The notes under the pieces: generated by a model
What the model was told of the DNA's origin: nothing
The model's database searches: none
Seen by the model: the letters and a program-made list of their open reading frames with translations, nothing else
Made by a program: the position numbers and the translations under genes
In this document: positions 39,366 through 52,808 of the stretch, piece after piece
Layout: every line of letters starts with the position of its first letter
Position numbering within the stretch: position 1 is the first letter of the stretch
From: Leisingera sp. SS27
GTDB taxonomy: Bacteria; Pseudomonadota; Alphaproteobacteria; Rhodobacterales; Rhodobacteraceae
Assembly (NCBI RefSeq): GCF_028368855.1
Contig: NZ_JAQNCY010000002.1
Coordinates: forward strand, 186,001 to 250,000
Length of the DNA: 64,000 bases
Direction of reading: 5' to 3'

Positions 39366-39635
39366 CTAGTTCCGAAAGGCCCAAACGCGGGCGTCCCGTT
39401 TCAGCATTGCCTGTTCTGCGGCGTCCAGACGTGCCACGGCTGCAGCGGGATCGCGGCTGCCGCCCGCCTTGGTCCAGAGCCTGAGCGCTGACGCCGGACT
39501 CCAGGGCAGGCACGCGTCCGCCAGCCACTGCCGCAGAGACGGCGGCAAAGCATCATAAGCCTGCATCGGATCCCCTGCCCTGCGCCGCCGTTTCAGGCGG
39601 GAGTTCAGATTGCGGAGCGCGCGGCGGTCAGCCAT
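39366..39635 (-). CDS. Small basic protein (DUF6525-like)
   Basis: An 89-residue protein: [54 protein letters not shown], an Arg-rich start followed by a helical MxxYDxLPPxLRxWLAxACLPWSP motif seen in small Rhodobacteraceae proteins annotated DUF6525 (recalled, not searched). Its ATG at 39635 overlaps the end of the cobW-family gene by eight bases, so it is translationally coupled to it and may share Zur control. Function unknown. Confidence 0.65.
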
Positions 39636-40827
39636 TGCGGCGCCAGCTTGGGAAAGGGTCTTCCAGCACGGACCAGGCCGGATCGAAGCCGTTGGCCGTT
39701 TCCGGCATAAGGCAGGCGTCCAGCCGCGCGGTGATCGCCTCCTTGTCCAGACCTGCGCCAATGAACACCAGTTCCTGCCGCCGGTCGCCCCAGGTTTCGT
39801 CCCAGTTCTGCAGAAATTCCTGCCGGGCCTCAGGATGAGACGGCCAGCGCTCCGTTGGCACCGCAGCCCACCACAGGCCGAGCGGGCGGACAGAGGATAT
39901 TGCCCCGGCCAGCGAGAACTCCGCAGCCCATTCGGGACGGGTGGCCAGCCAGAAATGCCCTTTGGCCCGGATTACGCCCGGCAGATCGCCGTTCAAAACA
40001 GCGTGGACCTGTGCGGGGTCAAAGGGGCGGCGGCCACGGTAGACAAAGGAGGAAATACCGTATTCCTCTGTTTCCGGAACATGGTGCTCAAAACCATAGA
40101 GCTCCTTGGCCCACAGCGGATGCTCGTGCGCCTTGTCAAAATTGAAACGGCCGGTGTCGAAGATGCGGTCCCCGTCTACTTCGGAGTAATCCGCCCGGAT
40201 CACCTCGGCATCCGGATTCAGCGCCTTGATGACCGCCATCGCCGCGGCGGTCTGCTCCGGTCCCGCGTCCGATACCTTGTTCAGGATAATGACATCAGAG
40301 AACTCGATCTGGTCTGTCAGCAGATTGACCAGGGTCCGGTCGTCCTCCGCGCCCAGGCTTTCACCGCGGTCGCTGAGGAAGTCATGGCTGGCGAAATCGC
40401 GCAGCAGGTTCACTGCGTCGACCACCGTGACCATTGTGTCCAGCCGGGCCACGTCTGAAAGGCTGGTGCCCTCCTCGTCCCGGAAATCGAAGGTCGCAGC
40501 CACCGGCAGCGGCTCAGCAATGCCGGTGCTTTCGATCAGCAAATAGTCGAAGCGCCCTTCAGCCGCGAGGCGGCGCACCTCCTGCAGCAGGTCGTCGCGC
40601 AGCGTGCAGCAGATGCAGCCGTTGGTCATCTCCACCAGCTTTTCATCCTGGCGTGACAGTTCCGTCCCGCCGCGCACCAAGTCCGCGTCGATGTTCACCT
40701 CGCTCATATCATTCACGATTACTGCAACCCTGCGGCCAGCGCGGTTGTTCAAAACTTGGTTCAAAAGTGTTGTCTTACCCGCCCCGAGGAAGCCCGAGAG
40801 CACTGTCACCGGCAGTCTGCCATCCAT
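39628..40827 (-). CDS. CobW/COG0523 GTP-binding metallochaperone (likely zinc)
   Basis: A 399-residue G3E GTPase. Walker [30 protein letters not shown] (the switch with Glu), the metal-binding CxCC motif in [31 protein letters not shown], and NKVSD as the guanine motif; a C-terminal CobW_C domain ([33 protein letters not shown]). COG0523 proteins under Zur deliver zinc to enzymes during starvation. A near-consensus Zur box sits 18 bases upstream, which argues for a zinc role rather than cobalamin synthesis. ATG at 40827; upstream GTG and TTG codons are possible. Confidence 0.87.
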
Positions 40828-40844
40828 CACGCACAAACCCTTTA

Positions 40845-40859
40845 TGTTATATCATAACA
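40845..40859 (-). promoter_or_regulatory. Zur box upstream of the cobW-family gene
   Basis: On the minus strand TGTTATGATATAACA; the proteobacterial Zur core is TGTTATA-N-TATAACA, so 13 of 14 defined bases agree. It ends 18 bases before the ATG, where bound Zur would block transcription. Confidence 0.65.
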
Positions 40860-41019
40860 ATCTTCAGGCAGAGTTAGCAGCCTGTCCCCCGGCCCGCAAG
40901 CCTGGAAACCGCGGGGATTGAAGCGCAGGAGGCAATCTTCTGCCAATATGCCGCAAACAGGCATTCAGGCGCCGTGTTTTTCCGCCAGCCTGAGGCCAAA
41001 GCCAAAAGGGAGGGACAGG

Positions 41020-42486
41020 ATGAGCCAACCGCCAAATTTTCTGGTCATCATCTCGGACGAGCACCGCAAGGATGCGATGGGCTGTGCAGGGCATCCTATT
41101 GTGAAAACTCCGAACCTGGACGCATTGGCGGCGCGCGGCACGATGTTCAGCTCGGCCTATACGCCCTCGCCCATGTGTGTTCCGACACGGGCAGCGCTGG
41201 CAACCGGAGACTGGATTCACAAGACCGGCCATTGGGACAGCGCAACGCCCTATGCTGGAGAACCGCCGAGCTGGATGCATGCCCTGCGGGAAACGGGCCG
41301 CGAGGTGGTGTCGATCGGCAAGCTGCATTTCCGCTCTGCCGGGGATGACAACGGGTTTACCGAGGAAATCCTGCCGATGCATGTGGTCGGAGGCGTCGGC
41401 TGGGCCATCGGCCTGCTGCGGGAAAACCCGCCGCCTTATGACTCTGCTGCAGAACTGGCCGGCGACGTCGGGGCGGGCAGCAGCACCTATACCGACTATG
41501 ACCTGGCGATCACCAAGGCCGCCGAAGCCTGGCTGGCCGACCCCAAGCGCCAGCAGCAGCCTTGGGCGGCCTTTGTGTCGCTGGTCAGCCCGCATTACCC
41601 GCTGACCTGCCCTGACGAATGGTACAGCCTGTACGATCCCGCGGAAATGGACTTGCCTGTGGGCTATGGCGAGGGGCTGCCGGAGCATGAGGAACTGCGC
41701 AACATCGCCGCCTTTTTCAACTACGATGACTATTTCGACGAACAGACGATGCGCGAGGCAAAGGCGGCCTATTATGGGCTGACGTCGTTCATGGATGATT
41801 GCGTGGGCCGGGTGATCAAGGCACTGGAGGCCAGCGGCCAATTGGAAAACACGGTGATCCTGTATGTGTCGGATCACGGCGACATGATGGGGGATCAAGG
41901 ATTCTGGACCAAGCAGGTGATGTACGAGCAATCCGCAGGGGTGCCGATGATCGCCGCCGGACCAGGCATTCCAGCGGGGCAGCAGGTGGCGACCTGCACC
42001 AGCCTGACTGACATCGCCGCCACTGCGCGTGAGGTCTGCGGCGCGGGGGAAGCCCCGGAATTGCCAGGCGTGTCGCTTCGCGCGGTTGCAAATGCGCCTT
42101 ATGACGAGGCCCGCACCGGCTTCAGCGAATACCATGACGGCGGGTCAAAAACCGGCGCCTTCATGGTGCGATGGGGCAAGTGGAAGTACGTCCACTATGC
42201 CGGGATGCAGCCGCAGCTGTTTGACCTGGAGGCGGACCCGAATGAGCAGGCAAACCGGGCGATGGACGGGGTCAATGATCCGAAGATCCAGGCGGCATTG
42301 GCTGAGGGTGCGCGGCGGCTGCTGGCAATCTGCGACCCGGAGGAGGTGAATGCCCGCGCCTTTGCCGATCAGCGCCGCAGGATCGCGCAGCTGGGCGGCG
42401 AGGAGGCCTGCCGCACGGCCTATGTGTTCAACCACACACCGACACCGGACGAGCAGGACGAAATGCGCGAAGGATCCCCGCTCTGA
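41020..42486 (+). CDS. Sulfatase (formylglycine type)
   Basis: A 488-residue alkaline-phosphatase-superfamily sulfatase. N-terminal metal site PNFLVIISDEHRKDAMGCAGHPIVKTPNLDALAARG, then the sulfatase signature CVPTRAALATG with the modifiable Cys at 53, Pro55 and Arg57, GKLHF (catalytic Lys and His), VSLVSPHYPL, and the second metal site VILYVSDHGDMMGDQG. The C-terminal FMVRWGKWKYVHYAGMQPQLFDLEADPNE is usual for type I sulfatases acting on small organic sulfates. No signal peptide is visible, so it is probably cytoplasmic. ATG at 41020 behind GGGAGGGA. No formylglycine-generating enzyme is in the window. Confidence 0.87.
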   Translation: MSQPPNFLVIISDEHRKDAMGCAGHPIVKTPNLDALAARGTMFSSAYTPSPMCVPTRAALATGDWIHKTGHWDSATPYAGEPPSWMHALRETGREVVSIGKLHFRSAGDDNGFTEEILPMHVVGGVGWAIGLLRENPPPYDSAAELAGDVGAGSSTYTDYDLAITKAAEAWLADPKRQQQPWAAFVSLVSPHYPLTCPDEWYSLYDPAEMDLPVGYGEGLPEHEELRNIAAFFNYDDYFDEQTMREAKAAYYGLTSFMDDCVGRVIKALEASGQLENTVILYVSDHGDMMGDQGFWTKQVMYEQSAGVPMIAAGPGIPAGQQVATCTSLTDIAATAREVCGAGEAPELPGVSLRAVANAPYDEARTGFSEYHDGGSKTGAFMVRWGKWKYVHYAGMQPQLFDLEADPNEQANRAMDGVNDPKIQAALAEGARRLLAICDPEEVNARAFADQRRRIAQLGGEEACRTAYVFNHTPTPDEQDEMREGSPL

Positions 42487-42540
42487 CTCTTGCCGCCTGT
42501 CCTGCCCTTGCCTAGGGTTCCTGGTCAGGAGGGCCATGCC

Positions 42541-42933
42541 ATGACACTGGAAGAGGCAATCGAAACCCAGCCGCTGTGGGTGCAGATCTGGGTCAACATC
42601 CTGTTTCTGGGCGCCTTTGTGCTGCCGCTGGCGCTGCTGATCTGGAAACCAGGCCGTCTGGCGGGGCTGGTCACTGTGGCCGCGAGCGTGCTGGCGGCAG
42701 CCGGTGTCTACTGGCTGTATGGGAAGCTGGGATATGTGCGGCTGCTGGGACTGCCGCATGTGATCCTGTGGACGCCTTTGATCTTCTGGCTGTGGCGGCA
42801 ACGAAAACGGCCGGAAATGCCCGTTTGGCCGCGGCGGATCATCCTGCTGGTCTGCGTGGTGATCGCGGTGTCGCTGGCGTTTGATTTTGCGGACGTGGCC
42901 CGTTACCTGCTGGGGGAACGGCGGCCATTCTGA
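42541..42933 (+). CDS. Hypothetical membrane protein
   Basis: A 130-residue protein with four hydrophobic segments: WVQIWVNILFLGAFVLPLALLIW, GLVTVAASVLAAAGVYWLY, LGLPHVILWTPLIFWLWR and IILLVCVVIAVSLAFDFADVA. The loop RQRKRPEMPVWPRR is basic and likely cytoplasmic. The family is not recognised. It follows the sulfatase gene by 54 bases on the same strand and may be co-transcribed, but no functional tie is evident. ATG at 42541 comes after CAGGAGGG. Confidence 0.7.
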   Translation: MTLEEAIETQPLWVQIWVNILFLGAFVLPLALLIWKPGRLAGLVTVAASVLAAAGVYWLYGKLGYVRLLGLPHVILWTPLIFWLWRQRKRPEMPVWPRRIILLVCVVIAVSLAFDFADVARYLLGERRPF

Positions 42934-42952
42934 ACCGCTCCTGCCCCGCGCG

Positions 42953-43000
42953 CAAAAGTTTTACTGAAAACTTTTGGTAATTTTCTTTTACAAGAAAATT
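42953..43000. repeat. Tandem AT-rich hairpins between convergent genes
   Basis: Two perfect hairpins three bases apart: CAAAAGTTTT-ACTG-AAAACTTTTG (42953-42976) and AATTTTCTT-TTAC-AAGAAAATT (42979-43000, 9-bp arms as read). They lie between the membrane-protein gene and the convergent reductive dehalogenase gene and stand out from GC-rich surroundings. They probably end both transcripts. Confidence 0.55.
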
Positions 43001-43024
43001 GTGCCGTTCCATCAGGACCGTGGC

Positions 43025-46000
43025 TCAGAGATCAATCTCCAGCACCCCCCCCGGCGCCAGCGCGCGGGACTGGCAGAGAATGATGGCGCCCTCGCGCTGC
43101 TTGTTCGACAGTACAAAGTCGCGGTGTTCAGCGTCGCCGGCAATAAGCCCGCATTTGCAGACCCCGCAGATCCCGTCGGAGCATTTCACATCCACGTGGA
43201 TGCCGCTTTCGGCCAGTGCTTCAGTTGCAGTCTTTTCCGCTGGAACCAGAATCTCGCGGCCCGATTTTGCCAGCTTCAGGGTAAAGGGATGGTTCTCGTA
43301 TTCGGGCTGTTCGGGAACCGAGAAATACTCCATGTGACGGGCCTCTTCGGGGAAGCCATTGGCTTCCGCCGCCTCCAGCACGGCCTGCATGTAGGCTTCC
43401 GGCCCGCAGGTGTAGACATGGCTGCCGGGGGTGTACCTCAGAACCTCCTGAAGGTCCGCACGGGTGCCCTGGTCGGAAAAATGCAGATGTACTTTATCAA
43501 TCCACGGCGCGGCTTCCAGATCCAATAAGAACCCTGCACTTATCTTTTTCGAATATGAAAAGTGGAATTCGAAGTCCCGGTCCAGAGCGTGCAAACGGTG
43601 AGCCATGGCGATCATCGGCGTCACCCCTATGCCGCCGCCCATCAGGTAGGATTTGGCGGCATCCTCTGCCAGCGGGAAGTGGTTGACCGGCTTGGATATG
43701 AAGACCAGCCGCCCCTCATCAAAGATCCGGTGCATGAGCCTGGACCCGCCGCGGCCTCCGTCTTCGCGCTGCACCGCAATCTGGTATTTCGACCGGTCGG
43801 CCGGATCGCCCGACAGCGAGTACTGGCGGAAAAATTCCGGCGCTACCACCACGTCGATGTGGGCGCCTGCGGTCGCCTGCGGGAGCGGCGCACCGTCCGG
43901 CAGGGAGAACTCATATTTGGTAACAGCCTCCGCCATCTGCTCGACCTTGGACAGGCGCACCCGCATGACCGGCGCTGCACCCTGATCAGCGGTATAGACA
44001 TGTTCCGGCGGCAGGCCTGCCGCGCGGCGGCGCTTGTGCTCCGCTGCCGGGATCATCGCCTGATAGGCAGCAATTCCGGCCTCGCGGTCCATCGGCGCGG
44101 GCCAGGCATAGGGCGGCGGCGCCAGCTGTGCGGGGTAGACCGCCAGCGTCTGGTCCTCAAACTTCAGATCTAAGTCCTTGGACAGCTTACGGGCATTCAC
44201 AGGATGCGGCGAGGGCGCGTAGGGCCCCTCTTCCACCATCTCCAGATCCCACCACCATTTCTTAGCGGTATTGACCTCGCCATGGCCCAGCGCGTCGTCG
44301 AGTTTTGCGAGCAATGGCGCGCTGCCCGGCATATTCATCGCGGCCCAGCGGAACGGCGCCTCTGCAAACAACCCTTCCAGGTTCCAGGGGCAGGTTTTCA
44401 TGCAGCGGCCGCACATCGCGCCGCCCGGTACAGTGACGCGGTAGGTGGTGCATTTCTGGCTGTCGGACTTCCAGATCTCGTAGCCGTTGAACATCAGCTT
44501 CGGCCCGGCGGTGATGGCGCCGGACGGGCATTCGCGGGCGCATTTGTTGCAGGCTTCACAGAACCGCTGCAGGCCGAAATCCACCGGTTTGTCGTGGGTC
44601 ATCGGCAGGTTGGTGGTCACGGCACCGGATTTCAGGCGGGGGCCGAGGAAGGGGTTCAGGATCACCTCGCCGATGCGGGAGACCTCACCCAGGCCCGACA
44701 GCAGCAACAGCGGCGGCTGCAGCACCTCGCCGTCCATCACCGAATGCACCCGGGCGGTATAGCCGAGGTTGCGGATCTGCTGCGCGATCACCCCGCCCAG
44801 CAGCGAGAACCGCAGATAGGCGCGCATCGACTGGGCGCAGGCGATCCAGTCATCACCGGAGGCGCCCTCCATCGTCTCATGGCCCTGGTCGATGATGATG
44901 CTGATGGCGTTTTCATGGTAGGGCGCCAGCACTTCGCCCGCCGCGTCGTGGGAGTAATATGCCCAGTCCGGGCAGCGCGAGAGGCCCACCGCGTCGCAGC
45001 CAAGGAAATAGGCGGCGGCCTTGATATTGGCGGCATTGCGGGCAGCGTCCGCGGCGCTGGGGTCGACCCGTGGCGCATGGTCGCCGTCCTGCAGCAGCAC
45101 CAAGGCCGCGAGCGAGGAGCGAAAGGCAAAGGCCGAAGAGGATTTGCGGACGTAGTTTCCGTTCTTCGCCGCCTCCTGCGGGCCCTTGCCGAGGTCGCCG
45201 AACAGGGAGCGTGCGAACATGTCAGCACGTTTCGGGACGCGCGCTACATTCACCTCGTCTATGTAGGTGGTTGGGTCTGCCACCCGCTTCAGGGTCTCGA
45301 ATGGGTGCGGGCCATCCATGAAGCGGCGCTTGGCGTAGGGGTCGCGGGTTGCAGCGCTCTTGGCGTGGGCGCCAAGTCCCAGCCGGTATTTGAGCCCCGG
45401 CGCCTGACCCGGCACCAGCGGCAGATCGGCGGCCAGTTCCAGCGTGGTGGTCACGGCAGCGATGCCGAAACGGCCGCCGAGGAACGGGTTTGCCGGCACA
45501 CCATCCTCATAGGTGGCAAGCCCGGCCTGCACCGCCAGCTTGCCCAGATGCACGTCACTGGCCGCACCGGTATGCGCGCGCGCCTCCCACCCCAGAAGGC
45601 GGATGTAGCTGGCAAGCGTCACCACGGTTTCCGCCGCCCGCAGGCAGGCGCGCTGGTTCTGCGCATCCGACAGCCAATCAGTGCCATCCTCGCCCGCTTC
45701 GGGGTCGCGTGGAAATTCGTATACGTAAACCAGTGCGTGCGTGTGGTGGCGGCAGTCCGCGGGCGGGGCCTGCATCGCCTCGCGCAGGTTCGCCATCACC
45801 ACGTCGATGCCGGAGGCAAAGGTCTTGGTCTGTTTCGTGCGCAGGGTTTCCGCCAGTGCCGCCACATCCGGGTTCACCAGCGGCGCGCCCAGCCAGGCGT
45901 CAGAGGGCACCGCGCAGGCGCCCGCCAGAGAGGCGTCGCAGAAGTAGCCAAAGGCCTTCAGATGATCCGTGCGCTCCTGCGGGTCGACAGGGATTTCTGC

Positions 46001-46222
46001 GCGTTCCTTTTTCACCAGCCCCTCGCGGGTGGCGTCCAGCATCGCCTGGTAGTCCCGCATTGCGTTGACGAGGGAGAGCGGCGCATCGGGGCGGCGGAAG
46101 CTGACCTGCGCCAGCGGCGGCAGTGCATCCAGTCCTTCGGGGGCCGCCTGCCGCACAAGGGTCTCCATCGGGTACGGCCCCAGGTGCACAGGCCGGTTGC
46201 GGTAGGAAAACAGCTTGCCCAT
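43025..46222 (-). CDS. Self-sufficient cobalamin-dependent reductive dehalogenase (RdhA fused to ferredoxin reductase)
   Basis: A 1065-residue cytosolic protein with no twin-arginine or Sec signal. Residues 1-700 are a BhbA/NpRdhA-type reductive dehalogenase; two [4Fe-4S] sites are visible as C555, C558, C561, C565 (FCEACNKCARECP) and C591 with C604, C607, C611 (CGRCMKTCPW). Y469, K531 and R595 keep the exact spacing of the Tyr426, Lys488 and Arg552 active-site residues I recall for NpRdhA (+43 each). Residues 750-1065 form a phthalate-dioxygenase-reductase-like unit: RQYSLS flavin site (799-804), GGGIGVTPM nucleotide site, CGP at 939-941, and a plant-type [2Fe-2S] set C1014, C1019, C1022, C1050. 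It would remove halogens from aromatics using NAD(P)H, without RdhB. MarR gene is 16 bases upstream. Confidence 0.9.
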   Translation of the reverse strand: MGKLFSYRNRPVHLGPYPMETLVRQAAPEGLDALPPLAQVSFRRPDAPLSLVNAMRDYQAMLDATREGLVKKERAEIPVDPQERTDHLKAFGYFCDASLAGACAVPSDAWLGAPLVNPDVAALAETLRTKQTKTFASGIDVVMANLREAMQAPPADCRHHTHALVYVYEFPRDPEAGEDGTDWLSDAQNQRACLRAAETVVTLASYIRLLGWEARAHTGAASDVHLGKLAVQAGLATYEDGVPANPFLGGRFGIAAVTTTLELAADLPLVPGQAPGLKYRLGLGAHAKSAATRDPYAKRRFMDGPHPFETLKRVADPTTYIDEVNVARVPKRADMFARSLFGDLGKGPQEAAKNGNYVRKSSSAFAFRSSLAALVLLQDGDHAPRVDPSAADAARNAANIKAAAYFLGCDAVGLSRCPDWAYYSHDAAGEVLAPYHENAISIIIDQGHETMEGASGDDWIACAQSMRAYLRFSLLGGVIAQQIRNLGYTARVHSVMDGEVLQPPLLLLSGLGEVSRIGEVILNPFLGPRLKSGAVTTNLPMTHDKPVDFGLQRFCEACNKCARECPSGAITAGPKLMFNGYEIWKSDSQKCTTYRVTVPGGAMCGRCMKTCPWNLEGLFAEAPFRWAAMNMPGSAPLLAKLDDALGHGEVNTAKKWWWDLEMVEEGPYAPSPHPVNARKLSKDLDLKFEDQTLAVYPAQLAPPPYAWPAPMDREAGIAAYQAMIPAAEHKRRRAAGLPPEHVYTADQGAAPVMRVRLSKVEQMAEAVTKYEFSLPDGAPLPQATAGAHIDVVVAPEFFRQYSLSGDPADRSKYQIAVQREDGGRGGSRLMHRIFDEGRLVFISKPVNHFPLAEDAAKSYLMGGGIGVTPMIAMAHRLHALDRDFEFHFSYSKKISAGFLLDLEAAPWIDKVHLHFSDQGTRADLQEVLRYTPGSHVYTCGPEAYMQAVLEAAEANGFPEEARHMEYFSVPEQPEYENHPFTLKLAKSGREILVPAEKTATEALAESGIHVDVKCSDGICGVCKCGLIAGDAEHRDFVLSNKQREGAIILCQSRALAPGGVLEIDL

Positions 46223-46238
46223 GGAAGGCCCCTTTGAG

Positions 46239-46691
46239 TTACAGCTTGGCGACGATGCGCGGCTCGTCCTGCAGCAGCCTGGCGGCGGATTGGCGCAGCG
46301 CAGAAAGTTCTTCGCCGCTCAGCTTGGCCTCAAAATACGCGGCGTTCTCCTGCGCGATGGGCAGCACCGCCAGCAGTGCGGCTTGCCCCGGCACGGTCAG
46401 CGCTACCCGGATTGAGCGCCCGTCGCCCTCTCCGCTGCGGCGGGTGATCAGCCCGCCGGCCTCCATCTGACGCAAGGCGCGGGAGGTGGCGGTGCGGTCG
46501 ATACCGATGAAATCAGCAATCTCCGAGGGGGTCGCCAGCCCCTCTTCCCCCGCGGCCAGCAGCACGCACCAGGTGACGCGGGTCAGCCTGTATTCCGCGA
46601 TGCGTTGTTCAAAACGGCGTTCGATCACGCGCGCCAGCATGGTGATCTGGTAGCCAAGGGATTGGTGCAGGTGGAAGCGTTGCTGAGTCAT
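46239..46691 (-). CDS. MarR-family regulator of the dehalogenase operon
   Basis: A 150-residue MarR protein: LGYQITMLARVIERRFEQRIAEYRLTRVTWCVLLAAGEEGLATPSEIADFIGIDRTATSRALRQMEAGGLITRRSGEGDGRSIRVALT, in order dimer helix, HTH (TPSEIADFIGIDRTATSRALRQME) and wing (GEGDGRSIRVAL). It precedes the dehalogenase gene by 16 bases, so the two are one operon. A perfect palindrome covers the bases just before the ATG at 46691, so it probably represses itself and the dehalogenase until a halogenated aromatic binds. A GTG at 46703 inside the palindrome is an alternative start. Confidence 0.88.
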   Translation of the reverse strand: MTQQRFHLHQSLGYQITMLARVIERRFEQRIAEYRLTRVTWCVLLAAGEEGLATPSEIADFIGIDRTATSRALRQMEAGGLITRRSGEGDGRSIRVALTVPGQAALLAVLPIAQENAAYFEAKLSGEELSALRQSAARLLQDEPRIVAKL

Positions 46692-46693
46692 GG

Positions 46694-46712
46694 TAATTGA
46701 CACTGTCAATTA
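46694..46712 (-). promoter_or_regulatory. Perfect 19-bp palindrome, MarR operator
   Basis: TAATTGACACTGTCAATTA: two 9-base arms around one C. It overlaps the start region of the marR-dehalogenase operon, where binding would block expression. Confidence 0.7.
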
Positions 46713-46849
46713 CTTTCCCATCAAAAGCCAGCGAAATCTGACCATGCCCTCCAGGCCATGGCCCGGATGGACGTAACGCGATCTGCGAGGCGTTGCATCA
46801 TTGCGGGCAGCCTGTATCGTCAAATCAGGCATGCTCTCAGGAGGTTAGC

Positions 46850-49138
46850 ATGAAATTCCGCTTTCCCATCGTCATCATTGACGAAGATTTCCGCTCCGAA
46901 AACTCTTCAGGCTCAGGCATCCGCGCCTTGGCCCAGGCCATTGAGGATGAAGGGTTCGAGGTGCAGGGCGTCACCGGCTACGGCGACCTGTCGCAATATG
47001 CACAGCAGCAGTCCCGCGCCAGCGCCTTTGTTCTGTCCATCGATGACGAGGAATTCACCACCGGCCCCGATCTGGACCCCGCTGTAGTCGCCCTGCGCAC
47101 GTTTATTGAGGAAGTGCGCTGGAAAAACGCCGATGTGCCGATCTACATCTACGGCGAGACCAAGACCAGCCGCCACCTGCCCAATGACATCCTGCGCGAG
47201 CTGCATGGCTTCATCCATATGTTCGAGGACACGCCGGAGTTTGTCGCCCGCCACATCATCCGCGAGGCAAAGAGTTACCTGGAAAGCATCCAGCCGCCGT
47301 TCTTCAGGAAGCTGCTGGATTACGCCGAGGACGGCTCCTACTCCTGGCACTGCCCGGGGCATTCCGGCGGCGTGGCCTTCCTGAAAAGCCCGGTCGGGCA
47401 GATGTACCACCAGTTCTACGGCGAAAACATGCTGCGGGCCGACGTTTGCAACGCAGTTGAGGAGCTGGGGCAGCTGTTGGACCATAATGGCGCGATTGGC
47501 GCCTCGGAACGCAATGCCGCGCGGATCTTCAACGCCGACCACTGCTATTTCGTGACCAATGGCACCTCGACCTCCAACAAGATGGTCTGGCATCACACGG
47601 TGGCACCGGGCGACGTGGTGGTGGTTGACCGCAATTGCCACAAGTCGATCCTGCATTCGATCATCATGACCGGCGCCATCCCGGTGTTCCTGAAGCCGAC
47701 CCGCAATCATTGGGGCATCATCGGCCCGATTCCGCATTCGGAATTCGAAATAGACAGCATAAAGGCCAAGATCCGCGCCAACCCGCTGCTGAAGGGCGTG
47801 GACGCCGATGCGGTGAAACCGCGGATCCTGACGCTGACGCAGTCGACCTATGACGGGGTGCTCTACAATACCGAGGTGATCAAGGGCCAGCTGGACGGCT
47901 ATACGGAGAACCTGCATTTCGACGAGGCCTGGCTGCCGCATGCGGCGTTTCACCCGTTTTATGGCAGCTATCACGCGATGGGCCGCAAGCGGGCGCGCAC
48001 CAAGCATTCGGTAACCTATGCCACCCAGTCGATTCACAAGCTGCTGGCGGGCATCAGCCAGGCCAGCCATGTGCTGGTGCAGGACAGCGAGGAGACCAAG
48101 CTGGACCGGCATCTGTTCAACGAGGCCTACCTGATGCACACCTCCACCAGCCCGCAGTATTCGATCATCGCCAGCTGCGATGTGGCGGCGGCGATGATGG
48201 AGCCGCCGGGCGGTACCGCGCTGGTCGAGGAAAGCATCATGGAGGCGCTGGATTTCCGCCGCGCCATGCGCAAGGTCGATGAGGAATACGGCGCCGATGA
48301 CTGGTGGTTCCAGGTCTGGGGCCCGGAGGATCTAGCCGAGGACGGGATCGGCAGCACCAACGACTGGGTTCTGAGGAAAACCGACGCCGACGGCGTGCAG
48401 GCGGGCGGCGAGGACAGCTGGCACGGCTTTGGCGACATGGCGCCGGGGTTCAACATGCTGGACCCGATCAAGGCCACCATCATCACACCCGGCCTCAAAC
48501 TGGACGGCCGGTTCGAGGACTGGGGCATCCCGGCCTCGATCGTGACCAAATATCTGGCCGAACATGGCGTGGTGGTGGAAAAGACCGGGCTTTATTCCTT
48601 CTTCATCATGTTCACCATCGGCATCACCAAGGGCCGCTGGAATTCACTGCTAAGCGCGCTGCAGCAGTTCAAGGACGACTTTGCCCGCAACCTGGCCGTG
48701 CCGCGCGCGATGCCGGAGTTCTGCGCCAGCCAGCCGCGGTATGAGCAGATGGGCCTGCGCGACCTGTGCCAGCATGTGCATGCGCTGTATTCCAAGAACA
48801 ACGTGGCGCGGCTGTCGACAGAGATGTACCTGAGCGACCTGACACCGGCGATGAAGCCGAGCGATGCCTTCAGCCAAATCGCCCGGCGCACCACCCAGCG
48901 GGTGCCGATTGATGATCTGGAAGGGCGCATCACCACCAGCCTGGTGACCCCCTACCCGCCTGGCATTCCGCTGCTGATCCCGGGCGAGGTGTTCAACAAG
49001 AAGATCGTGGAATACCTGAAGTTCAACCGCGCCTTCGGGCGGGAATGCCCGGGATTCGAGACCGACATCCACGGGTTGGTGCAGGAAACCGGGCCCGACG
49101 GGCTGACCCATTACTTCGCCGACTGCGTGGCGGAATAG
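46850..49138 (+). CDS. Orn/Lys/Arg decarboxylase, PLP fold-type I (biodegradative class)
   Basis: A 762-residue member of the large inducible-type family: an N-terminal wing (receiver-like) domain (residues 1-130, FPIVIIDEDFRSENSSGSGI), then the PLP core with SWHCPGHSGGVAFLKSP, HCYFVTNGTSTSNKMVWH, DRNCHKSILHS, HFDEAW (D358) and the PLP lysine K397 in ATQSIHKLLAGISQASHV, and a C-terminal domain (TPYPPGIPLLIPGEVF). These enzymes decarboxylate arginine, lysine or ornithine to a polyamine. Which one is not evident. ATG at 46850 behind CAGGAGG. It diverges from the marR-dehalogenase operon over 158 bases. Confidence 0.9.
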   Translation: MKFRFPIVIIDEDFRSENSSGSGIRALAQAIEDEGFEVQGVTGYGDLSQYAQQQSRASAFVLSIDDEEFTTGPDLDPAVVALRTFIEEVRWKNADVPIYIYGETKTSRHLPNDILRELHGFIHMFEDTPEFVARHIIREAKSYLESIQPPFFRKLLDYAEDGSYSWHCPGHSGGVAFLKSPVGQMYHQFYGENMLRADVCNAVEELGQLLDHNGAIGASERNAARIFNADHCYFVTNGTSTSNKMVWHHTVAPGDVVVVDRNCHKSILHSIIMTGAIPVFLKPTRNHWGIIGPIPHSEFEIDSIKAKIRANPLLKGVDADAVKPRILTLTQSTYDGVLYNTEVIKGQLDGYTENLHFDEAWLPHAAFHPFYGSYHAMGRKRARTKHSVTYATQSIHKLLAGISQASHVLVQDSEETKLDRHLFNEAYLMHTSTSPQYSIIASCDVAAAMMEPPGGTALVEESIMEALDFRRAMRKVDEEYGADDWWFQVWGPEDLAEDGIGSTNDWVLRKTDADGVQAGGEDSWHGFGDMAPGFNMLDPIKATIITPGLKLDGRFEDWGIPASIVTKYLAEHGVVVEKTGLYSFFIMFTIGITKGRWNSLLSALQQFKDDFARNLAVPRAMPEFCASQPRYEQMGLRDLCQHVHALYSKNNVARLSTEMYLSDLTPAMKPSDAFSQIARRTTQRVPIDDLEGRITTSLVTPYPPGIPLLIPGEVFNKKIVEYLKFNRAFGRECPGFETDIHGLVQETGPDGLTHYFADCVAE

Positions 49139-49145
49139 TAATAGT

Positions 49146-49171
49146 GGCGGCCACGTTTCCACGCGGCCGCC
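49146..49171. terminator. Hairpin between convergent decarboxylase and E1 genes
   Basis: GGCGGCC-A-CGT and ACG-C-GGCCGCC pair with one mismatch around TTCC, seven bases after the decarboxylase stop. No T-run is seen. Confidence 0.4.
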
Positions 49172-49210
49172 CCTGTGCTTCAACCTGATCTCGCAAGCTC
49201 AGACAGGCGT

Positions 49211-51595
49211 TTACCCGGCCGGCACCGCGTTGCTGACCCGTTTGCCGGCGGTCAACCCGTTCACCTTGGCCACGATAGCGGCAGCATCCAGCCCGTGGTG
49301 GCGGTAGAGATCACCGATGGTGCCGGTCTGGCCGAAATGCTCCACCCCCAGCGGGATGGTCTGGTGGCCGGCAACCCCGCCCAGCCAGGCAAGCGTCGCC
49401 GGGTGGCCGTCGATCACGGTGATCACCTTGCAGTGCGGCGGCAGACCGCCCATCAGAGTTTCAATATGGGACCTGGCGGCGGCGTTGCCGCGCGCGCGCG
49501 CCCGCTGCGCCGCGGTCCAGCCCGCGTTCAGCCGGTCGGCAGAGGTGACGGCCAGCACGCCCACGTCGCGGCGGCTTTCGCCGATGATTCCCGCAGCCTT
49601 GATCGCCTCCGGTGCCACCGCGCCCTGGTAGGCGATCACCACATCGCAGTTCGGCCCCGGTTTGCGCAGCCAGTAGCCGCCGTCGATGGCCCCCTGGCGG
49701 AAGTCCTCATCGGCGCGCTTGCCGGGCTGCTCCATCGGGCTAGTGGTGAGGCGCAAATAGACCGAGCCGCCGGTCTCGTCGCGCAGCCAGGTGCGCTCAT
49801 CCGGGTCGCCCTCGCCGTCGCGCTGCAGGTAGTCGAAGGCCCATTCCATGATCACTGCCAGCTCATCGGCAAAGGCCGGTTCAAACGCTGCCAGTCCGTC
49901 CTGCGACATGCCGATAAGCGGTGTGCCGATCGACTGATGCGCGCCGCCTTCGGGCGCCAGCGTCACACCCGACGGGGTGCCGACGATCATGAAACGCGCG
50001 TCCTGGTAGCAGGCATAGTTAAGCGCATCGAGGCCGCGGCAGACAAAGGGGTCGTAAACCGTGCCAATGGGGATCACCCGCTTGCCGAACAGCGAATGCG
50101 ACAGGCCCGCAGCGCCCAAGAGCAGGAACAGGTTCATCTCCGCGATGCCCAGCTCCAGATGCTGGCCTTCGGGGGCAAAGTTCCATTTCGCCGTCGACGG
50201 GATGCGGTGCTCGATAAAGGCATCCTTTTGCACCTCGCGGGCAAACAGCTTGCGCCGGTTGACCCAAGGCCCGAGCCCGGTGGTGCCGGTCACATCGGGC
50301 GAGGTCGTGAGGATCCGCGCCGCCAGTTCGCTGTCGCCCTTGGACAGATCATCAAGGATCTTGCCGAACGCCATCTGGGTGGAGATTTCGCGGGAGGTGC
50401 CGATGGCAATCGCGGGCACCGGCAGCGGCGCGTCGAAATGGCGGCGCGGGCCTTCGGCAAAGAACGGCACCTGACGCAGGAAGCCCTGCAGCGCGGCGGG
50501 GTCGGAAACGGTGGCGAAGGGCTCCCATTCCGCACCTTCCGCAACGCCCATATGGGCCTGCCATTCCGCCATCTGCGCCTTGGTCATCAGCCCGCCGTGG
50601 TTGTCCTTGTGGCCGGCAATCGGCGTGCCCCAGCCCTTGACCGTATAGGCCAGGAAGCAGACCGGGCGGTCGTGGCCGATGGATGCGAAAGTGTCCGCCA
50701 TCGTCTCGACGCAGTTGCCGCCGAGGTTTTCCATCAGCTCCGCCAGCTCATCATCGCTGCGTTTCTCAATCAGCGCGCTGACATCGCCCTGGTCGCCCAG
50801 ATCATCCATCAGGTGCTGCCGCCAGACCGCACCACCCATGTAGGTGAGCGCGGAATACTGCTGGTTCGGGCAGGCATCGATCCAGGCGCGCAAGCGCTCG
50901 CCTCCCGGCTCCTCGAATGCAGCCCGCTGCAAGGCGCCGTATTTCACCCGCACTACGTCCCAGCCGAAGGCGTCAAAGATCTTCTCGATCCGCTCGAACA
51001 GCCCCTCGCGGACGATGCCGTCCAGCGACTGACGGTTGTAGTCGATGATCCACCAGGTATTGCGCAGATCGTTCTTCCAGCCTTCCTGCAGCACCTCGTA
51101 GATGTTGCCCTCGTCCAGCTCAGCATCACCTGCCAGCGCCACCATACGGCCGGTGCGGGCGTCCTGTCCCCAGTCCTTGGCGGTGATGAAATCCTGCACC
51201 ATCGAAGCCAGCGCGGTGATTCCGACGCCCAGGCCGACAGAGCCGGTGGAGAAATCCACGTCATCCACGTCCTTGGTGCGGCTGGGATAGCTCTGCACCC
51301 CACCGAAGCCGCGGAAATTCTCCATCTTCTCGCGGGTCTGGTTGCCCATCAGGTACTGCATCGCATGAAAGACCGGCGAGGCATGCGGTTTCACCGCCAC
51401 CCGGTCGCCGGGCTTCAGTGCAGAAAAATACAGCGCCGTCATGATCGACACCATCGACGCCGACGAGGCCTGATGCCCCCCGATCTTGATCCCGTCCGCC
51501 TTGGGGCGGATGTGGTTCGCGTTGTGAATCATCCAATGCGACAGCCACAACAGCCGCTGTTCGATGGTCTTGAGGTGGGTCAGATCGGGGCGCAT
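49211..51595 (-). CDS. mdeB: Homodimeric 2-oxoacid dehydrogenase E1 / transketolase-like protein (MdeB-like)
   Basis: A 794-residue thiamine-diphosphate enzyme of the AceE-type E1 group. N-terminal HANHIRPKADGIKIGGHQASSASMVSIMTALYF, TPP/Mg site GDAELDEGNIYEVLQEGW followed by WIIDYNRQSLDG, FLAYTVKGWGTPIAGHKDNHGGLM, and the pyrimidine-binding half HLELGIAEMNLFLLLGAAGL plus a transketolase C-terminal domain. Its gene starts 11 bases after the methionine gamma-lyase gene. In Pseudomonas putida mdeA is followed by mdeB, an E1 relative proposed to use 2-oxobutyrate. The same role is inferred here; E2 and E3 are not in the window. Confidence 0.82.
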   Translation of the reverse strand: MRPDLTHLKTIEQRLLWLSHWMIHNANHIRPKADGIKIGGHQASSASMVSIMTALYFSALKPGDRVAVKPHASPVFHAMQYLMGNQTREKMENFRGFGGVQSYPSRTKDVDDVDFSTGSVGLGVGITALASMVQDFITAKDWGQDARTGRMVALAGDAELDEGNIYEVLQEGWKNDLRNTWWIIDYNRQSLDGIVREGLFERIEKIFDAFGWDVVRVKYGALQRAAFEEPGGERLRAWIDACPNQQYSALTYMGGAVWRQHLMDDLGDQGDVSALIEKRSDDELAELMENLGGNCVETMADTFASIGHDRPVCFLAYTVKGWGTPIAGHKDNHGGLMTKAQMAEWQAHMGVAEGAEWEPFATVSDPAALQGFLRQVPFFAEGPRRHFDAPLPVPAIAIGTSREISTQMAFGKILDDLSKGDSELAARILTTSPDVTGTTGLGPWVNRRKLFAREVQKDAFIEHRIPSTAKWNFAPEGQHLELGIAEMNLFLLLGAAGLSHSLFGKRVIPIGTVYDPFVCRGLDALNYACYQDARFMIVGTPSGVTLAPEGGAHQSIGTPLIGMSQDGLAAFEPAFADELAVIMEWAFDYLQRDGEGDPDERTWLRDETGGSVYLRLTTSPMEQPGKRADEDFRQGAIDGGYWLRKPGPNCDVVIAYQGAVAPEAIKAAGIIGESRRDVGVLAVTSADRLNAGWTAAQRARARGNAAARSHIETLMGGLPPHCKVITVIDGHPATLAWLGGVAGHQTIPLGVEHFGQTGTIGDLYRHHGLDAAAIVAKVNGLTAGKRVSNAVPAG

Positions 51596-51605
51596 GGTTC
51601 TCTCC

Positions 51606-52808
51606 TTACTCGGCGGCGTGCTGAACGGGGGCGGGCAAGGCCTGCTCCAGATCGGCCAGGATGTCGGCCACGTCCTCCAGCCCCACCGACAGGCGGATCA
51701 GCCCGTCGCTGATGCCGTGCTCAGCGCGCTCTTCCGGGGTGTAGGTCGAATGGGTCATCGAGGCAGGGTGCTGGATCAGGGTTTCCGCATCACCCAGCGA
51801 CACTGCCCGCTGGATCATCTGCAAACCGTTCATGAAGGCGATACCGCCCTGCAGGCCGCCCTCGACCTCAAAGGCAATCATGGCGCCGGGCTGCGCCATC
51901 TGGCGTTTGGCGACATCGGCCTGGGCAAAACTGTCATGCCCCGGGAAGGACACCGATTTCACCGCAGGGTGGGCGGCCAGATAATCCGCCACGGTTGCAG
52001 CAGAGGCGCAATGGCGGTCCATCCGCAGCGCCAGGGTCTTGAGGCCGCGCAGAATCAGCATGGCGTTGAAGGGCGCCATCACCGCACCTGTCATGTCCTT
52101 TATGCCGACCAGGCGGATTTCACCAATTTGCTCGGCGGTGCCCACGACAAGGCCCGCCACCACATCGCCGTGGCCGCCCAGGTATTTGGTGGCGGAATGC
52201 AGCACGATATCGGCGCCCAGTTCAATCGGGCGGGTCAGATAGGGGGTGGCATAGGTGTTGTCGACCACCACCTGCGCGCCTGCGGCATGGGCGATTTCTG
52301 ATGCCGCGGCGATGTCCACCAGCCGCATGTTCGGGTTGGCCGGGGTCTCGAAATAGACCACGCGGGTCTTGTCCGAAACTGCCGCGCGCAGGTTCTCCAT
52401 GTCGGTCATGTCGACATGGGTGATGGTAACGCCCCATTTCGCCAGCCCGTGGCGCATGAAGGCGAAGGTGCAGCCATAGAGCGTCTTGTCCACGATCACC
52501 TCGTCGCCGGGTGACAGCAGTGTCCACAGAACCGCGGTGATGGCGCCCATGCCGCTGCTGAGCGCCAAGCCCGCCTCAGCACCTTCCAGCGTGGCGATGC
52601 GCTGTTCCAGCAGGTCGCAGGTCGGGTTGGAGATCCGGCTGTAGATATGGCCTTGGCGCTCGCCTGCGAACATCTCGCCTCCGGCCTCCGCAGTGGCAAA
52701 GGTGAAGGTAGAGGTCAGGTGCAGCGGCGGCGTCAGCGCGCCTTCGTTGTCCTGCGGGTCATAGGCGTGGTGGATGGCACGAGTGGCAAAGCCGCCGGAG
52801 GTTTTCAT
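51606..52808 (-). CDS. mdeA: L-methionine gamma-lyase
   Basis: A 400-residue Cys/Met-metabolism PLP enzyme. The key residues of Pseudomonas MGL are present three positions lower: Y56 and R58 (YSRISNPT), Y111 and C113 (LYGCTF, equal to Tyr114 and Cys116, the Cys that marks true MGL) and the PLP lysine K208 (SATKYLGGHGD, equal to Lys211). It splits methionine to methanethiol, 2-oxobutyrate and ammonia. Operon with the E1-like gene, divergent from an Lrp regulator, as in mdeRAB. ATG at 52808 gives the correct N-terminus; the frame extends to 52859. Cystathionine gamma-lyase is less likely because of C113. Confidence 0.9.
   Translation of the reverse strand: MKTSGGFATRAIHHAYDPQDNEGALTPPLHLTSTFTFATAEAGGEMFAGERQGHIYSRISNPTCDLLEQRIATLEGAEAGLALSSGMGAITAVLWTLLSPGDEVIVDKTLYGCTFAFMRHGLAKWGVTITHVDMTDMENLRAAVSDKTRVVYFETPANPNMRLVDIAAASEIAHAAGAQVVVDNTYATPYLTRPIELGADIVLHSATKYLGGHGDVVAGLVVGTAEQIGEIRLVGIKDMTGAVMAPFNAMLILRGLKTLALRMDRHCASAATVADYLAAHPAVKSVSFPGHDSFAQADVAKRQMAQPGAMIAFEVEGGLQGGIAFMNGLQMIQRAVSLGDAETLIQHPASMTHSTYTPEERAEHGISDGLIRLSVGLEDVADILADLEQALPAPVQHAAE

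Follow-up and report, generated by a model that had tools for sequence, protein, structure and literature searches.

We report here that a 64,000-nucleotide stretch of the genome of Leisingera sp. SS27 (the window, on contig C12, one of the 30 that make up a 4.8-Mb assembly) encodes a reductive dehalogenase (RdhA) fused to a phthalate-dioxygenase-reductase-like (PDOR) module, with a marR gene and a perfect palindrome directly upstream. The fused protein is very probably a cytoplasmic, self-sufficient catabolic reductive dehalogenase, for which we propose control by the adjoining MarR. By analogy with characterised relatives, it probably removes bromine or iodine from phenols in air with NADPH. 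The enzyme itself is of a known and widespread kind: a protein built in the same way has been purified and assayed before, and many genomes in the order of the host carry the gene.

The initial annotation had read the gene as a 1065-residue RdhA with both [4Fe-4S] sites and a complete NAD(P)H-flavin-[2Fe-2S] reductase, and this assignment was upheld. The predicted protein scored 197.4 bits against the NCBIfam reductive dehalogenase family TIGR02486 (curated cut-off 160.35). The Pfam profile PF13486 did not report it, and TIGR02486 was therefore taken as the test of membership. In the reductase part, Fer2 exceeded its cut-off at residues 985-1054 but FAD_binding_6 and NAD_binding_1 stayed below theirs. 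A sequence search of the PDB matched residues 3-108 and 156-735 to NpRdhA (4ras, E=8.1e-158) and residues 753-1061 to phthalate dioxygenase reductase (2pia, E=1.3e-55). Residues 75-275 and 385-560 form a diverged internal repeat, recovered both by hhalign (probability 99.6, E=4.8e-24) and by single-sequence blastp (E=3.15e-13); a vestigial duplication of the core has been described for catabolic RdhAs, as has an insert specific to RdhA-PDOR fusions (PMC10463259). Ratios of nonsynonymous to synonymous substitution (dN/dS) of 0.077-0.105 against four Leisingera orthologues indicate purifying selection on the fusion gene. The folds of both modules are also supported by an AlphaFold2 model (47 sequences; mean predicted local distance difference test, pLDDT, 76.2; predicted template modelling score, pTM, 0.73). 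Its best fold matches were NpRdhA structures (6zxx, template modelling score, TM, 0.79 by target), with PceA far lower, and its C-terminal part matched 2pia (TM 0.66).

Other identities for a protein with this core fared poorly. A respiratory, energy-conserving dehalogenase would share the RdhA core, as PceA does (4uqu, E=3.6e-33), but the fused reductase, the vestigial repeat and the fusion-type insert all speak against that function, the N-terminus showed no export signal on reading by eye (no predictor was applied), and the top PDB matches were to the catabolic NpRdhA, with PceA far down the ranking. We rejected this identity on scores and architecture and consider it very improbable. The chance that the protein is instead a large relative of the epoxyqueuosine reductase QueG appears smaller still and close to negligible, since the weak match to TIGR00276 at residues 475-576 (25.5 bits against a cut-off of 200) contrasts with the score for TIGR02486 given above, family scores on which the QueG identity was rejected; a separate frame (C23:70370-71209), 31% identical to residues 391-666, was taken as the QueG of the cell.

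Residue conservation was followed in 85 fused sequences, namely the window, 79 of the 80 loci from genome_contigs and five plasmid loci, L090 being excluded for want of a stop-closed frame. Y469, K531 and R595, which had been placed at the spacing of the NpRdhA active site, align with Y426, K488 and R552 of NpRdhA at a constant offset of 43 and with equal spacings. All three are identical in every one of the 85 sequences, as are F336, S465 and M466, which align with F291, S422 and M423 of NpRdhA. The eight cysteines of the two [4Fe-4S] sites (Table 1) are likewise retained throughout (85/85) and in NpRdhA. In the reductase module, C1014, C1019, C1022 and C1050 are cysteine in 84, 84, 85 and 84 of the sequences, the gapped row at the first, second and fourth of these presumably being the frameshifted L030.

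Enzymes of this kind have been published under the name of full-length or self-sufficient catabolic RdhAs (PMC10463259). The nearest characterised kind is JtRdhA from the marine Jhaorihella thermophila, which was missing from the initial annotation; of the relatives that were named there, BhbA has the same design but NpRdhA comes without a reductase. JtRdhA was purified with cobalamin, flavin mononucleotide (FMN) and about nine irons, and is reported to be NADPH-dependent. It acted on phenols bearing bromine or iodine, with or without air and with tight coupling, at Michaelis constants (KM) for bromophenols of 13-21 uM or less, but converted none of the chlorinated or fluorinated compounds tested (PMC10463259). 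By its published description, it is free of a twin-arginine translocation (Tat) signal and shares with the window protein the RdhA-PDOR fusion, the duplicated core, two [4Fe-4S] clusters, the Y/K/R residues and a fusion-specific insert (PMC10463259). The difference is that activity has been demonstrated for JtRdhA, whereas the window protein is known here from its sequence; catalysis, NADPH use, oxygen tolerance and a preference for bromine and iodine are what we infer for it from JtRdhA and NpRdhA. The earlier proposal of aerobic, NAD(P)H-driven reduction of halogenated aromatics thus agrees with the NADPH activity of JtRdhA in air, but was drawn too wide, as JtRdhA is described as sparing the chloro- and fluoro-compounds tested (PMC10463259).

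BhbA, encoded on plasmid pBHB of Comamonas sp. 7D-2, has the same domain order throughout (50.3% identity over 1059 positions), the same Y/K/R triad and the insert (Table 1). It differs in that its gene is plasmid-borne and has genes for protocatechuate 4,5-dioxygenase and for a transporter binding protein as neighbours, in that no adjacent marR was found at its locus, and in the residues aligned with M335, A352 and Y357 of the window protein, which are F, S and S (the first S falling on NpRdhA K307). NpRdhA from Nitratireductor pacificus (4RAS, 6ZXU) is 43.0% identical over 677 positions, with the same triad and cluster cysteines, but has neither the reductase domain nor the 47-residue insert, and its K307, F310 and N452 are not shared. 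The electron-transfer module of phthalate dioxygenase reductase (2PIA) and of self-sufficient P450s (6LAA, 6KBH) resembles the C-terminal part of the fusion, but in those proteins it is not attached to an RdhA.

On this basis a catalytic cycle may be proposed. Hydride from NAD(P)H would pass to FMN in the C-terminal module, and from there single electrons would reach base-off cobalamin, bound in the functional second core, by way of the [2Fe-2S] and then both [4Fe-4S] clusters. The substrate, an ortho-bromo- or iodophenol, would sit above the cobalt while S465, K531 and R595 hold its hydroxyl; with a proton from Y469, acting with K531, the halide would leave and the ring gain hydrogen. Products such as 4-hydroxybenzoate or 4-hydroxyphenylacetate could enter the PobA/protocatechuate or other aromatic routes. 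Inspection of residues 886-901 for a preference between NADH and NADPH gave no clear verdict.

The marR part of the initial annotation was also confirmed and strengthened. The product of the upstream gene scored 48.3 bits against PF12802 (cut-off 27), and the gene lies 16 bp upstream of rdhA in the same direction. Among 85 relatives (80 loci from genome_contigs and five plasmid loci, L090 included and the window excluded), tblastn found a MarR gene adjoining rdhA in 44, in tandem in 43 of them and divergent in one; ORF (open reading frame) clustering gave 42 of 85 loci (window included, L090 excluded), and we prefer the tblastn count. The plasmid copy of Aminobacter (Hyphomicrobiales, 59.6% identical) also has marR and rdhA in tandem, with the site core at one mismatch. 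The genes surrounding the pair vary. A tree of the fusions (84 rows, L090 and the frameshifted L030 left out) was computed by a quick search, has long outer branches and serves as an illustration only; in 57 of its rows one or more of three shared neighbour clusters accompany rdhA, and the Leisingera-type loci, including the window, keep marR and rdhA together with none of the three. The neighbour genes in relatives, on which we did not rely, we take to be HAD phosphatase, trimethylamine-methyltransferase-like, DUF3572-like and PleD-like.

The palindrome TAATTGACANTGTCAATTA has no second match in the 4.8-Mb genome, even with three mismatches allowed. Nine of the ten Leisingera-type loci carry its core unchanged and the other (L027) has it with one mismatch, and the sequence farther upstream diverges in L026-L029. 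When the 750 bp upstream of rdhA were scanned for the core TTGACANTGTCAA at no more than one mismatch, it was present in 28 of the 44 loci with marR, in none of the 41 without and in two of 3008 random 750-bp stretches drawn from the same loci with the region of the site excluded; at no more than two mismatches, the counts were 35/44, 4/41 and 83/3008. The motif was derived from Leisingera-type loci that are themselves among the 44, and with the nine such loci set aside the core at no more than one mismatch is found in 19 of 35 loci with marR vs 0 of 41 without. Fisher tests on these counts take no account of relatedness among the loci. The counts are good evidence that the palindrome and marR make up a local, dedicated MarR switch. 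MarR-type negative regulators of rdh genes have been reported in Dehalococcoides (PMC6299228). The association of a marR gene with rdh clusters in Dehalococcoides mccartyi is a likeness to the present locus (PMC6299228), but its dehalogenases are respiratory and the organism belongs to another phylum. Among the papers listed by our literature searches, we saw no such regulator described for an aerobic reductive dehalogenase, nor did the passages of PMC10463259 searched for MarR describe one.

Several observations weigh against the function and control proposed here. In the pocket, K307, F310 and N452 of NpRdhA are replaced by A352, Y357 and V495, and further differences are found at F290, P311 and A419 (M335, V358 and C462 in the window protein). 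K307 makes a salt bridge to the substrate carboxylate in one binding mode of NpRdhA; the pocket differences, its place included, leave room for another ring substituent, and the exact substrate may therefore differ. The AlphaFold2 model has a pLDDT below 50 at residues 562-616, 449-457, 514-518 and 351-360, that is, in the cluster region and near the pocket, so the model was not used for pocket geometry, which rests on the sequence alignment. Ros_A3X954 of Roseobacter sp. MED193, a member of another reductive dehalogenase subfamily, is reported to lose its activity on oxygen exposure (PMC13101508). As to control, no adjacent marR was found in 41 of the 85 relatives (L057, with less than 500 bp upstream, among them), and in nine of the 44 loci with marR no site turned up even with two mismatches allowed.

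Ros_A3X954 comes close to the window protein as a debrominase from Roseobacter, and is described as free of a Tat signal, but its cluster motifs lie at residues 283-294 and 337-345 and it was placed in a distinct cluster (PMC13101508); with motifs that early, it lacks the long N-terminal repeat. A fused copy is present in MED193 as well (L089; 67.6% identity to the window protein). The pocket differences also bear on the alternative that the protein is a reductase of RdhA fold whose natural substrate is another phenol or a natural product, dehalogenation being a side activity. Besides the residues away from the hydroxyl (A352, Y357, V495), this would fit the neighbours in the window, a sulfatase, a small membrane-like protein and a ZigA-like GTPase, which make up no halophenol pathway and are matched only in Leisingera-type loci. 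Yet the residues with which NpRdhA holds and protonates a halophenol are identical in all 85 fused sequences, BhbA is encoded on pBHB beside ring-cleavage genes, a Nitratireductor homologue adjoins pobA and ring-cleavage genes, and JtRdhA is reported to act on bromophenols at the low KM given above (PMC10463259), and we regard a natural substrate other than a halophenol as improbable. Rather more plausible, though still unlikely, is that marR is a passenger with no role in the regulation of rdhA, the palindrome serving marR itself or something else, as the 41 loci with rdhA and no detected adjacent marR could suggest. Against this stand the 16-bp spacing on the same strand, the tandem order in 43 of 85 loci, the Aminobacter plasmid outside Rhodobacterales among them, the retention of the pair in Leisingera despite different surrounding genes, and the uniqueness of the site in the genome. 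We therefore favour a dehalogenase of halophenols under local control. Bound to the palindrome at the start of its own gene, MarR probably keeps the marR-rdhA pair repressed, and would be released when a halophenol or related phenol binds.

Table 1. Features of the marR-rdhA locus, in positions of the window
Feature	Position	Strand	Basis
Perfect 19-bp palindrome TAATTGACANTGTCAATTA, probable MarR operator	46694..46712	.	2 bp before the marR ATG
marR	46239..46691	-	PF12802; longest ORF starts at TTG 46709, ATG at 46691 preferred
rdhA-PDOR fusion gene (self-sufficient catabolic reductive dehalogenase), 1065 aa	43025..46222	-	ORF, ATG start; profile, PDB and fold matches
Vestigial N-terminal copy of the cobalamin-binding core, codons 75-275	45398..46000	-	Profile-profile and blastp repeat
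47-residue insert, codons 107-153	45764..45904	-	Missing in NpRdhA; BhbA fills 46/47 positions
Functional cobalamin-binding core with S465, M466, Y469 and K531, codons 385-560	44543..45070	-	Alignment to NpRdhA
Two [4Fe-4S] sites (C555/C558/C561/C565; C591/C604/C607/C611) and R595, codons 555-611	44390..44560	-	Alignment
Phthalate-dioxygenase-reductase-like module (FMN, NAD(P), plant-type [2Fe-2S]), codons 753-1065	43028..43966	-	2pia, Fer2, fold match

Over the full protein, identity in genome_contigs was highest to a Rhodobacteraceae metagenome-assembled genome (MAG; 95%), followed by Leisingera strains (up to 93%); the search may have excluded records from the genome of the window itself. 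Within the genus, 16 of 21 genomes (own included) carry one full-length fused frame; no fused match was obtained in G006 or G009. In G013 the gene is split into two frames near residue 911, with the same break in L030 (Leisingera sp. JC1); the frame change (L030 11730-11784; G013:C136:35533-35542) gives overlapping frames of 927 and 155 residues, and could reflect a true split, a pseudogene or an error in sequencing. G002 (C1:3325606-3326425) and G003 (C1:3269401-3270089) show no more than fragments, 42-80% identical, so that the gene seems to be decaying in some lineages. The fusion was found in 7 of 16 genomes from other genera of the family and, in full, in none of 24 more distant members of the class, where G037 and G043 match RdhA without the reductase part. 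In the order of the host, taken as Rhodobacterales from the named relatives, 148 of 292 sampled genomes (at least 90% complete) match the fusion at E<=1e-80, in 47 of 112 genera; among the matches listed, to which G245, for example, does not belong, all but three (G157, G242, G338) are essentially end to end. Homologues of bhbA have likewise been reported as widespread in the Roseobacter clade (PMC13101508).

Three genomes (G153, G210, G279) hold two full-length fused copies that differ in identity to the window protein (72% and 62% in G210); such pairs may represent paralogues that act on different substrates. A search of 72,556 plasmid records gave eight with a match over at least 80% of the fusion protein, from Ruegeria, Tritonibacter (two), Jannaschia, Yoonia, Aminobacter, Comamonas and Nitratireductor. 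One further locus, L065, from a Pimelobacter MAG contig labelled Actinomycetota (NZZG01000008.1), groups with Maritimibacter L097 in the tree, and the contig is therefore probably misbinned.

The window had been noted to hold no cobalamin genes, and a look for corrinoid genes elsewhere was advised. CobN, BluB, CobG, CobW, precorrin-8X methylmutase and precorrin-6A reductase were all found over their cut-offs in profile searches of the rest of the genome, so their absence from the window means little, and cobalamin is probably made, at least as judged from these six genes. PobA, the protocatechuate dioxygenase beta subunit and homogentisate dioxygenase (HmgA) also exceeded their cut-offs, and debrominated products of the hydroxybenzoate type could thus be used; the cobalamin and aromatic-breakdown genes found are all on contigs other than that of rdhA. 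No Rfam RNA, such as a cobalamin riboswitch, reached the gathering threshold in window positions 40000-52000. A CobW-family GTPase at 39628-40836 (-) scored 595.8 bits against the ZigA zinc-chaperone cut-off of 600, and the CobW cut-off was exceeded by a frame elsewhere (L112:7914-9029). The noted absence of RdhB from the window was followed up in one small ORF next to rdhA and convergent with it (42490-42933), which had no family match over cut-off, and not by a systematic search. The sulfatase gene at 40918-42486 (+), convergent with rdhA, was matched near rdhA in seven of nine Leisingera-type loci, with shortened matches in L024 and L025 (321 and 385 of 522 residues aligned) and none in L027 and L028, and near rdhA in no other of the 85 loci (E<=1e-15, 60% coverage; some flanks short). 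A joint sulfatase and dehalogenase route for sulfated bromophenols was dropped, the sulfatase being matched near rdhA only in the Leisingera-type loci of those searched.

As the enzyme class has already been characterised, one more member matters little. What is new here is modest: the frequency of the fusion in the order (148 of 292 sampled genomes), and the association of marR and its candidate operator with rdhA, which gives an aerobic reductive dehalogenase a specific regulator and operator that can be put to the test. Because the unit is also found outside Rhodobacterales, on the Aminobacter plasmid, because it stays intact at a different genomic place in Leisingera, and because the enzyme occurs in about half of the sampled genomes of the order, the marR-palindrome-rdhA arrangement could be an old unit of marine Alphaproteobacteria dedicated to halophenol sensing and aerobic debromination, an idea to which we give a little less than an even chance. 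If true, aerobic debromination at the cost of NADPH would belong to the default, inducible repertoire of a group very common in the surface ocean and would not be the trick of a pollutant specialist, and the MarR would be a ready-made bromophenol sensor. Were the MarR to respond to bromophenols, this would point to the natural substrate of the enzyme and provide a sensor for marine organobromine turnover.

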